From Halobacteria archaeon HArc-gm2 (lineage in GTDB: Archaea; Halobacteriota; Halobacteria; Halobacteriales; Haloarculaceae): a DNA stretch of 64,000 nt. Below, one piece after another: positions 22,207-56,908 of this stretch. The notes beneath the pieces are model-generated. The model had not been told where the DNA came from and ran no database searches. It saw nothing but the letters and a program-made list of their open reading frames with translations. The stretch is from the NCBI GenBank assembly GCA_025517465.1, contig JAOPKE010000008.1, positions 1 to 64,000 of the forward strand. The letters are read 5' to 3'. Both the position numbers and the translations under genes were made by a program. The stretch's first letter is position 1. Every line of letters begins with the position of its first letter.

Positions 22207-22316
22207 TTCGACGTCGAGTTTTCGGAGTGAGCGGTAATGTTTGCTCAGTACAGATCAAGGAGTTAGCGATCGGTGGCTTCCAGGATTGTCGCTGTTAGCA
22301 CGACGTCAAACACCTC

Positions 22317-22692
22317 GAAAGCCCTCGGCGCGCTCGACTCGTGCGAACCCGCTGCGCGCGCTCGTTCCTCGCGTGCTTGCGGGTTCGGACTTCGTCGACC
22401 GCACCTCGCCCTTTCAGTCCACCAGGAATCAGCACCGCTCGTGCACGGAGGCACTCGCGATTAGACCGCCACCCCTCCCCGAACCCGCCGCGTCCGCGGC
22501 GGGTCACGCTTCCTTCAGTAACCACCCGGCCGGGAGCGCGTTTCATCGCGCGACCAGGGGAAGGGCAGGGCTGCGGTGCTTTCCTGGAGGACTGAAAGGG
22601 CGAGGCGTGGTCCGGGAACCCGGGCGCAGTAAGCACCGCAACGCAGTGAGGAGCGCAGCGAGCCCCGGGACCGGAGCGCGCCGAGGGCTTTC
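22317..22692. repeat. Composite structured element, copy 1 (arms C, D and core)
   Basis: The whole element is bounded by GAAAGCCCTCGG (22317) and CCGAGGGCTTTC (22692). The left arm ends CCCTTTCAGTCCACCAGG and the right arm begins CCTGGAGGACTGAAAGGG, so the arms face outward. Between them, the core (about 22440-22580) has two clean hairpins: ACCCGCCGCG-tc-CGCGGCGGGT (22483-22504) and GCGCG-tttcat-CGCGC (22536-22551). It ends GGGCAGGGCTGCGGTGC. The same layout, with different stem sequences, occurs near 34.4 and 45.2 kb. No protein-coding signal. Confidence 0.85.
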
Positions 22693-22848
22693 TGGCTGTT
22701 GTTGATATCGTTTCTTCCATCGAGATCGCGACGAACCAACTGGTCTGTACACAGATGACGAGAACGGCCGAGCCTCTCGCCACAGATGTACGAGTGAATC
22801 CTGGGACGCCATCACACACCACAAGAACACCACCGAAAAGAGACCGAC

Positions 22849-34378: not shown

Positions 34379-34820
34379 GAAAGCCCTCGGCTCGCTCGAC
34401 TCGCGCACCACAGTCTGCGCTCCTCGCTCTGCTGCGGTGCCCTCAGCGAAGCTGAGGACTACGCGAGAGCTTCGCTCTCGCGGTCGCTTGACGTGTCGTG
34501 CTTCGTCGACCACGCCTCGCCCTTTCAGTCCTCCAGGGACAGCCTCGCCCGCGCGATAAAACGCGCTCGCGATTAGAACCACCAGACCTCCCCGGTCGCG
34601 CCTGGCGGCGCGACACGCTTCCTGACCGCTCCGCAACCGCCCGGCCGGGAGCACGTGCCCGAACGAACGTGAGGGCCGTGCGACCAGGGGGAGGGCAGGG
34701 CTGCGGTGCCTGGAGGACCGAAAGGGCGAGGTGGGCTCGGGGAAGCCGGGACCCCCAAGCACCGGAGCGGAGCGAGGAGCGCAGGGTGGTCCCCGCGACC
34801 CGAGCACGCCGAGGGCTTTC
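34379..34820. repeat. Composite structured element, copy 2 (arms E, F and core)
   Basis: Bounded by GAAAGCCCTCGG (34379) and CCGAGGGCTTTC (34820). The core has hairpins GTCGCGCC-tggc-GGCGCGAC (34595-34614) and GCACG...CGTGC (34651-34681), and CCTCCCC (34587) can pair with GGGGAGG (34688). Arm E holds two added perfect hairpins, CCTCAGC-gaa-GCTGAGG and CGCGAGAGC-ttc-GCTCTCGCG. A further loose end, GAGAGCGCACCGAGGGCTTT plus C, lies at 34851-34871. Most of the gap between the helicase and the acidic protein is this element. Confidence 0.85.
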
Positions 34821-35024
34821 GAGGTGTTGGCGGTTACTATTCAGACTGTCGAGAGCGCACCGAGGGCTTTCTGAATGTTATTGGGTTTGACTTCGACTGC
34901 TAGCGAGCAAATTGATTCAACACCACTACTCACAGAAGAGATGCCACCCACATACCAATAGTCTAGCTTTCATATCCGAGAAATCGGGAGATAGTTTCTT
35001 GTGTGCCGATGAAATGGGGGAGAT

Positions 35025-39233: not shown

Positions 39234-39381
39234 GAAAGCCCCCGGGCGGTCACGGCGCTTCGCGCCGTTTCCTCGGGAGAGCTTGCTCTCCCGGCGGTCG
39301 CTGGCTGCGAACGCCGCTGCGCGCGGCCTTCGGCCGTGCTTGCGGGTTCTCGCTCAGCGACCGCCCGGCCCCTTTCATTCC
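39234..39381 (-). repeat. Dispersed structured element, single arm I
   Basis: GAAAGCCCC begins the arm and GGCCCCTTTCATTCCTACC ends it. CGGGCGGTC and GACCGCCCG form the closing stem. Inside are perfect hairpins ACGGCGC-ttc-GCGCCGT (39252-39268) and CGGGAGAGC-tt-GCTCTCCCG (39274-39293). It lies between the permease stop and the tRNA-Pro promoter region. Strand as for arm B. Confidence 0.75.
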
Positions 39382-44452: not shown

Positions 44453-44840
44453 ACCGATGCTACCGGCTCCGGTCGTTTCAGTCCGACGGCTCGGGCCGGC
44501 GAGCCAGTTGGGCGAGCGATGGCCGCGTGGCCGCCCCGTACACGCTGATTTCTCCGCCGTAGTGTCCGTATACCGCCGGCCGGCGACGGGATGTAAGCTA
44601 TCGTCGACGGGCGCGAGACGGTGCGGCGCGCCCCACCACGGCGAAGGCGACCCGTTCCGGGGCCTCGCAAAATGGATCTGGAGCGCCGACCGTGACGGCA
44701 GGTGACCCGGGAGTGGCAGCCGAATGGTCCGGTACTCGCAGGCGATCCCTTTTCGCGGTGACCGAGCCGCTATCTGGCGTATAACAAGGGACCTGTCCCT
44801 CCTGCGTGTTACTGTGGTCGCGACGTGCGGCCAGCCCGGT
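44453..44840. other. Leader region of tRNA-like genes
   Basis: No protein gene. GTATAACA near 44778 is a possible TATA box, followed by the small hairpin AGGGAC-ct-GTCCCT, with the first tRNA-like gene starting at 44841. Elsewhere nothing is recognised. Confidence 0.4.
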
Positions 44841-44926
44841 GAAAGGGTCGCTCAGCCTGGTAGAGCATCCACGGCGGTCGTGGGTGGCCGGCAACGGTCT
44901 CGGTGGTTCGAATCCACCCCCTTTCG
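44841..44926 (+). tRNA. tRNA-like gene 1, class II shape, odd anticodon loop
   Basis: An 86-nt cloverleaf: acceptor GAAAGGG/CCCTTTC with discriminator G, T8, D-stem GCTC/GAGC with A14 and GG, T-stem GGTGG/CCACC with loop TTCGAAT, and a long variable arm GCCG-gcaa-CGGT. The anticodon stem TCCAC/GTGGG closes GGCGGTC, where the invariant T33 is G; nominal anticodon CGG (Pro). The 32:38 G-C pair would shrink the loop to five bases. It may be a degenerate or non-translational tRNA-like RNA. Confidence 0.6.
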
Positions 44927-44931
44927 TCCGC

Positions 44932-45002
44932 GCACGGGTGGTGTAATGGCAACATGCGGTCGGTCCACGACCGAGCTGGAGGTTCGACTCCTCCCCCCTG
45001 CA
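44932..45002 (+). tRNA. tRNA-like gene 2, Gly-like, odd anticodon loop
   Basis: Only five bases after the first. Acceptor GCACGGG/CCCCTGC has one C-C mismatch; T8, A14 and a tRNA-Gly-like D-arm (GGTGTAATGGCAACAT) follow; the T-arm is GGAGG TTCGACT CCTCC and the discriminator is A. The anticodon stem CGGTC/GACCG closes GGTCCAC, giving nominal anticodon TCC (Gly) with G at position 33. As in its neighbour, positions 32-33 are GG and 38 is C. Confidence 0.55.
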
Positions 45003-45119: not shown

Positions 45120-45141
45120 GAAAGCCCTCGGCGCGCTCTCT
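45120..45141 (+). repeat. Isolated element end, left of copy 3
   Basis: GAAAGCCCTCGGCGCGCTCT followed by C is an element terminus without an arm. Its inverted partner GAGAGCGCGCCGAGGGCTTT plus C lies at 45583-45604, so a second, outer pair of ends encloses copy 3. Confidence 0.7.
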
Positions 45142-45169
45142 GGAGTCGGAGTCGGGACCGACGACAAAG

Positions 45170-45553
45170 GAAAGCCCTCGGCCCGCTGAACTCGCGCGGA
45201 CCGCACTGCGCTCCTCGCTCCGCTGCGGTGCTTATGGGTCCGTGCTTCGTTCACCGCACCTCGCCCTTTCAGTCCTCCAGGTTCCGCATCGCTCGCGCGA
45301 TAAAACGCGCTCACGATTAGAACCACCAAGCCTCCCCGGATTCGGCGCGTCCGCGCCGAATCACGCATCCTGACCGCTCCACAACCGCCTGGCCGGGAGG
45401 CCGTCTCGTCGGCCGACCAGGGGGAGGGCAGGGCTGCGGTGCTGTGCTAGCCCTGGAGGAATGAAAGGGCGAGGGACGGTCCGGGAACCCCGGACCCGTA
45501 AGCACCGACGGCGCGCAGCGGGTCCGCGGGACCGGACCGGCCCGAGGGCTTTC
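45170..45553. repeat. Composite structured element, copy 3 (arms G, H and core)
   Basis: Bounded by GAAAGCCCTCGG (45170) and CCGAGGGCTTTC (45553). Core hairpins are GATTCGGCGCG-tc-CGCGCCGAATC (45339-45362) and GGCCG-tctcgt-CGGCC (45399-45414). CCTCCCC (45331) can pair with GGGGAGG (45421). The core shares CGATTAGAACCACC and GGGCAGGGCTGCGGTGC with the other copies. Right and left arms each carry their own internal stems. Confidence 0.87.
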
Positions 45554-45582
45554 GAGACATTGCTGAATCCGTTGTCCACTTC

Positions 45583-45604
45583 AGAGAGCGCGCCGAGGGC
45601 TTTC
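45583..45604 (-). repeat. Isolated element end, right of copy 3
   Basis: The inverted match to 45120-45141 over 21 bases (with the terminal C outside the run). A similar loose end is found at 34851-34871 next to copy 2. Confidence 0.7.
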
Positions 45605-56743: not shown

Positions 56744-56908
56744 GAAAGCCCTCGGCTGACTCCGGTGCCGAAAGATCGCTGTCGTCCGAAAATTGGAGAT
56801 TTTCGTGATGAGCGTGGGACTCTTTGAGTCCCACGAACCATGCGCCTCACTTCGTTCGGTACTTACTTCGTCGGACTTCGTCGACCGCCCCTAGCCCTTT
56901 CAGTCCAC
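56744..56908 (-). repeat. Dispersed structured element, single arm J with nested repeat
   Basis: Starts GAAAGCCCTCGG and ends GCCCTTTCAGTCCACC as other arms. Inside it sits the 66-bp two-hairpin repeat (56779-56844) that is otherwise found at 24368-24433, so one element has inserted into, or been exchanged with, the variable part of the other. Confidence 0.7.
56779..56844 (+). repeat. 66-bp two-hairpin repeat, copy 2
   Basis: CGAAAAT-tggag-ATTTTCG and GTGGGACTC-ttt-GAGTCCCAC hairpins followed by GAACCATGCG. Compared with copy 1 most differences fall in loops. Confidence 0.75.

Follow-up and report, generated by a model that had tools for sequence, protein, structure and literature searches.

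In bacteria, REPIN and BIME elements consist of mirror imperfect hairpins around a spacer and are present in dozens of intergenic copies. HEARO and omega RNAs, along with other large bacterial structured RNAs, likewise occur in many dispersed copies and have ties to mobile DNA. The haloarchaea harbor numerous transposase-free repeats with palindromes or inverted ends, among them the PATEs of Haloquadratum, which lack inverted ends, and the SMRs of ~110 bp; the sections of the report that describe these repeats make no mention of a covarying core (PMC3119063). Haloarchaea also harbor IS6 transposons and MITEs, and ISfinder has an IS6-type MITE named MITEHarch3 (PMC6807381).

The window analyzed here is a 64-kb stretch of the 4.25-Mb genome G000, and it contains copies of a repeat that resembles each of these systems in part. 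Like REPINs and BIMEs, the repeat has a mirror hairpin pair and dozens of intergenic copies, but it is far larger and carries a conserved, strand-specific folded core. It resembles the PATEs and SMRs as one more palindromic haloarchaeal repeat, probably without a transposase, and differs from their descriptions in that core. With HEARO and omega RNAs it has in common that it is structured, multi-copy, and linked with mobile DNA, yet it has no Rfam match and no associated nuclease gene was seen in the repeat. Its arms have homologs among elements in sister species, which have the TIR GGYRGTGTTCAGATAAG in common with an IS6-family element; unlike the IS6 transposons and MITEs, the window copies are without the TIR or target duplications and possess an additional folded core.

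The absence of a named RNA with this layout, as originally predicted, agrees with an Rfam search at the gathering score and at E ≤ 1, in which no family matches the element and the only matches, to tRNA and RNase P RNA, lie outside it. No description of the element was found in the open-access literature. As judged from its sequence, it makes a good candidate for a structured RNA, or folded DNA, of a new kind. The known non-coding RNA classes of this archaeal group are few, and the repeat would add to them a structured element that no Rfam family covers.

Copies and layout of the repeat

The element is a non-coding repeat of ~0.5 kb with dozens of copies per genome. Exact copies of module M1, the 3' half of the core, number at least 58 in G000 and at least 44 in the sister species G006, and the core occurs at least ~40 times in G000 (BLAST, 40 candidates scored). 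The repeat is built of nested palindromes and, on length, is too short for the IS6-family transposase of 211 aa.

Three composite copies had been placed at 22317-22692, 34379-34820, and 45170-45553, and all three are found exactly there. The predicted composite layout of arms around a core is present, but the repeated region runs ~70 bp past the predicted arm ends. Copies 2 and 3 bear additional outer GAAAGCCCTCGG units at a spacing of ~51 bp, and alignment of the ends of copies reveals one to two such additional units, again at ~51-bp spacing, in many copies. With at most one mismatch, GAAAGCCCTCGG occurs 11 times in the 64-kb window versus 0.45 expected. The features of the three copies are listed below, with G029 denoting a genome of another genus in the same family.

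22245..22316, + strand: copy 1, left outer extension, from TCAGTACAGATCAAGG... up to the first GAAAGCCC; found in other copies (ends of ~50 copies aligned)
22317..22415, + strand: copy 1, left arm, consisting of GAAAGCCCTCG, a variable hairpin, and CCTCGCCCTTTC
22437..22456, + strand: copy 1, small hairpin A, GTGC/GCAC; GCGC/GCGC in most copies
22474..22480, + strand: copy 1, 5' side of the closing helix P1, CCTCCCC, predicted to pair with GGGG(A)AGG at 22557-22564
22482..22505, + strand: copy 1, hairpin B (hairpin 1 of the original prediction); both-side changes at 8/10 pairs, 106/108 paired in G029
22528..22569, + strand: copy 1, module M1, consisting of GGCCGGGAG, hairpin C (the predicted hairpin 2), and GACCAGGGGAAGGGCAGG
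22594..22692, + strand: copy 1, right arm, consisting of GAAAGGGCGAGG, a variable hairpin, and CCGAGGGCTTTC
22693..22752, + strand: copy 1, right outer extension (ends of ~50 copies aligned)
34379..34526, + strand: copy 2, left arm, in which a further hairpin cassette is nested
34547..34614, + strand: copy 2, hairpin A (34547-34568), P1 CCTCCCC (34587-34593), and hairpin B (34595-34614)
34643..34699, + strand: copy 2, module M1 with a long hairpin C that contains tandem G.A
34720..34820, + strand: copy 2, right arm; an additional outer CGAGGGCTTTC unit lies at 34861-34871
45120..45270, + strand: copy 3, left arm (45170-45270) preceded by an additional outer unit (45120)
45291..45362, + strand: copy 3, hairpin A (45291-45312), P1 CCTCCCC (45331-45337), and hairpin B (45339-45362)
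45391..45432, + strand: copy 3, module M1
45463..45604, + strand: copy 3, right arm (45463-45553) followed by an additional outer unit (to 45604)

Lone GAAAGCCC[CT]CGG motifs with no core are present in the window at 39234-39245 and 56744-56755 and are possible arm remnants. Genes for tRNA-Pro(CGG) and tRNA-Gly(TCC) lie at 44840-45002, directly upstream of copy 3, whose site is filled in G006 too.

Arms and copy dynamics

Each arm forms its own hairpin, and the pair constitutes mirror-image hairpins. A single long RNA stem formed by pairing of the two arms is rejected at the variable sites tested, which are uncoupled (19/39 complementary versus 19.7 expected). Two sister species, G001 and G003, have related arms that lack the core and are present inside elements of 0.3-0.5 kb bounded by GGYRGTGTTCAGATAAG. 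Exact 8-bp target duplications were computed at L234, L241, and L246, several other elements showing none, and duplications were read by eye around L044 (CATCGCTC) and L046 (GTTTCTTT). The GGYRGTGTTCAGATAAG ends also bound a 697-bp element that encodes an IS6-family transposase (NF033587, 8.8e-59). The IS6-type TIR GGNNGTGTTCAGATAAGC has no match in G000 and is present only in the arms-only relatives, target duplications are not in excess at the focal copies (a shared 8-mer at 2 versus 2.25 expected), and no intact transposase of this IS6 type was found in the G000 genome. Given these three results, we infer only that the arms descend from an IS6-related element, and family membership is not claimed for the window copies. 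At L048, a stemless right arm reads GAAAGGGCGAGGGCTTTC, as though the arm hairpin had been inserted with a CGAGG duplication.

The orthologous place of all three window copies is filled in G006. Between G000 and G006, the flanks match at L001/L075 and L011/L077 and the cassettes and arms differ. The core is flipped at two further sites, L067/L078 and window copy 2 relative to G006 C1:408704. One G006 element is absent from the orthologous place in G000, and the junctions show no duplication. These differences would be explained by ectopic conversion, inversion from arm to arm, and gain or loss. A separate small palindrome, TAGTGGTGGTTGTA...TACAACCACCACTA, adjoins a G006 copy at L073:1100-1200 and represents another unnamed repeat.

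The genes flanking 53 copies in the focal genomes, as called by a simple method based on codon composition, are convergent in 18 cases, tandem in 23, and divergent in 12. These mixed directions indicate that the element is not bound to one gene strand, and a near-random gene orientation is a poor match for a fixed cis-regulatory RNA.

Covariation and the folded strand of the core

Hairpin B is exact in all three copies (22483-22492/22495-22504, 34595-34602/34607-34614, and 45339-45349/45352-45362), and the predicted stems of hairpin C, GCGCG/CGCGC, GCACG/CGTGC, and GGCCG/CGGCC, are found as given. The joining segments, described as nearly fixed, are mostly so across 52 aligned cores; the exception is the CGATTAGA..CC segment, which is looser than claimed and consists of CGATT, a few variable bases, and CC. 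The prediction that letters change while pairing is kept is borne out by covariation well over background, both in the alignment described next and in the hairpins of G029.

In an alignment of 44 distinct cores (A1), scored against a named structure of 28 base pairs, changes on both sides preserve pairing at 17 of the 28 pairs. The covariation score of this alignment is 0.358 versus 0.099 after shuffling, with none of 500 shuffles as high, and paired cells amount to 95.3% versus 78.1% in the shuffled alignments. With the partners displaced by 1-3 columns, pairing falls to 37-47%, and the main helices predicted by RNAalifold agree with the named structure. The closing helix P1, CCTCCCC/GGGGAAGG, is invariant across the cores, and covariation cannot speak to it; beyond the focal relatives, only 1/57 loci has a complementary stretch of ≥10 upstream, and CCTCCCC is seen again in Haloglomus and others. 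The folding energy of the core is not significant on either strand (z -0.8 to -2.0), and hence the case for the core structure rests on covariation.

Hairpin B is present as a limited set of recurring types among copies. Because hairpin cassettes are swapped whole between copies, sequence counts exceed independent events, and the covariation stems partly from this exchange. The cores of G029, which were not part of structure building and whose hairpin B letters are unlike the focal ones, form an independent set. A covariance model generated from the focal cores (R1) matches 16 cores in G029 at 46-92 bits, with weaker matches in Haloglomus and Haloarcula rara, and 106 of the 108 outer pairs of hairpin B in G029 are Watson-Crick versus 72 with the arms shuffled among copies. 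Some copies carry insertions in which the fold is kept: in L063, L065, L066, L072, and L073, a common hairpin-bearing insert of ~58 bp separates GACC from GGGGAAGG, and palindromic inserts lie within hairpin C of L019 and L062.

Which strand folds was addressed with 87 distinct M1 hairpins, using a scoring blind to mismatch type. Stem mismatches in these hairpins are G.T in 31 cases versus A.C in 6 (p 4e-5, ignoring relatedness), and isolated internal mismatches with paired neighbors display the same bias (G.T 23 versus A.C 5, p 0.0009, likewise ignoring relatedness). Mismatches of G.A outnumber those of T.C by 104 to 3, and a tandem G.A/A.G step is present in 46 distinct M1 hairpins, with the complementary tandem T.C/C.T in none. 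The bias indicates that one strand is the folded one, as RNA or single-stranded DNA, rather than a simple palindrome in DNA. From a process that acts on palindromes in double-stranded form, no strand bias would be expected, and the bias in M1 therefore speaks against such a process. In DNA, G.T is also the mildest mismatch and tandem G.A forms as well. The strand bias thus appears to fit RNA best, though single-stranded DNA has an equal mismatch preference. In the arms, the measures of the same test disagree, G.T favoring one orientation and purine mismatches the opposite.

Module M1 across the order and explanations of the fold

Hairpin C is part of module M1, which has the form GGCCGG-GA, variable stem, GA-CCNGGGGRAGGGCAGG and makes up the 3' half of the core as GGCCGGGAG, hairpin, GACCNGGGGRAGGGCAGG. 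A search of 195 Halobacteriales genomes revealed M1 in 32, with a reversed-pattern control of zero throughout; the genera include Haloarcula, Natrinema, Natronococcus, Haloterrigena, Natronomonas, Haloglomus, Halorientalis, and others. The base of M1 is fixed while the letters of the stem vary widely from locus to locus, and the two pairs that flank the basal G.A step co-vary in a few loci (T-A, A-T, T-G, C-G). As read from the sequence, the N of GACCNGGGG behaves like an unpaired bulge. A kink-turn at the base of M1 is ruled out from the sequence, in which the G.A step has no neighboring 3-nt bulge. Beyond the focal genus, M1 is often without arms, located in intergenic gaps and adjoining T-rich hairpins.

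The original prediction described a selected RNA or folded-DNA structure. Its selected single-strand fold is supported by covariation, whereas the dispersed, transposon-like context and the swapping of cassettes were overlooked. The explanation favored here, to which we give about an even chance, is a non-autonomous transposon-like repeat that carries a selected, probably RNA, fold, with hairpins exchanged between copies and arms that would be IS6-derived. The core would fold on one strand, with P1 as its closing helix and with hairpin B and M1 as further parts; the variable hairpin of M1 would rest on a tandem G.A step together with a short helix of two pairs. Copies would trade hairpins via gene conversion, and the core would be retained because it works as a folded RNA, produced by read-through from the neighborhood or from an unseen promoter. 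Recognition may occur via the conserved base GGCCGG-GA ... GA-CCNGGGGRAGGGCAGG instead of the stem letters, in which case the hairpins would be spacers tolerant of length and sequence, and the likeliest job of the putative RNA would be protein binding or transcript stabilization. A more tentative proposal, to which we lean somewhat less, is that M1 and its flanking helices represent a new class of structured RNA that spans the haloarchaeal order, is recognized via the G.A step and conserved base, and was captured and amplified by mobile repeats, with the hairpins as exchangeable cassettes. The ~60 copies per genome that exchange stems with the fold preserved would provide a natural experiment, and the question of whether short archaeal transposon-like repeats carry a functional RNA becomes testable.

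The repeated, transposon-like nature of the element, its mirrored hairpin arms, and its close to random gene orientation also suit a fold that acts as single-stranded DNA, either as a transposase or recombinase substrate or as a structure formed in replication; REPIN/RAYT and IS200/IS605-type elements are the precedents. DNA, too, forms stable sheared tandem G.A and small loops, which count for the same reading. However, the TIR, 8-bp duplication, and IS6 DDE transposase of the relatives belong to the double-strand DDE type, which uses no folded single strands, and M1 is found outside the arms too; we regard a role as single-stranded DNA as unlikely. It is more doubtful that the pairing is unselected, preserved in a decaying repeat by DNA-level processes such as template switching or conversion of whole palindromic cassettes. 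Swapping of whole cassettes is clear and would yield paired changes without selection, and palindromic inserts are present at many points. Yet such processes are blind to strand, while the mismatches are strongly biased (G.T 31 versus A.C 6; G.A versus T.C), and the sequences on either side of the M1 hairpin are conserved order-wide despite differing stems.

The lowest probability is given to M1 as an element of gene ends, that is, a 3' UTR structure or the companion of a bidirectional terminator. At many loci, arm-free M1 is located in intergenic gaps, where its distance to the 3' end of the gene on the right is nearly constant at 150-200 nt, and it adjoins T-rich hairpins. In contrast, orientation in the focal genomes is mixed, with 12 of the 53 copies between divergent genes, and the M1 strand is antisense to both neighbors at many loci beyond the focal genus.

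Individual loci display further arrangements of M1. Two M1-like units lie back to back on opposite strands, with overlap, at L183:797-880 in Haloarcula rara. In Haloarcula vallismortis, the gene for RNase P RNA (L131:7512-7957, match to Rfam RF00373) has an M1 module ~230 bp upstream, at L131:7280-7297. An M1 unit occupies a common place in five Natrialbaceae genomes (L112, L114, L121, L138, and L174), beside a gene starting about MYEAVHAHPDGQSTVARL, which possibly encodes the RNase P p30 subunit.
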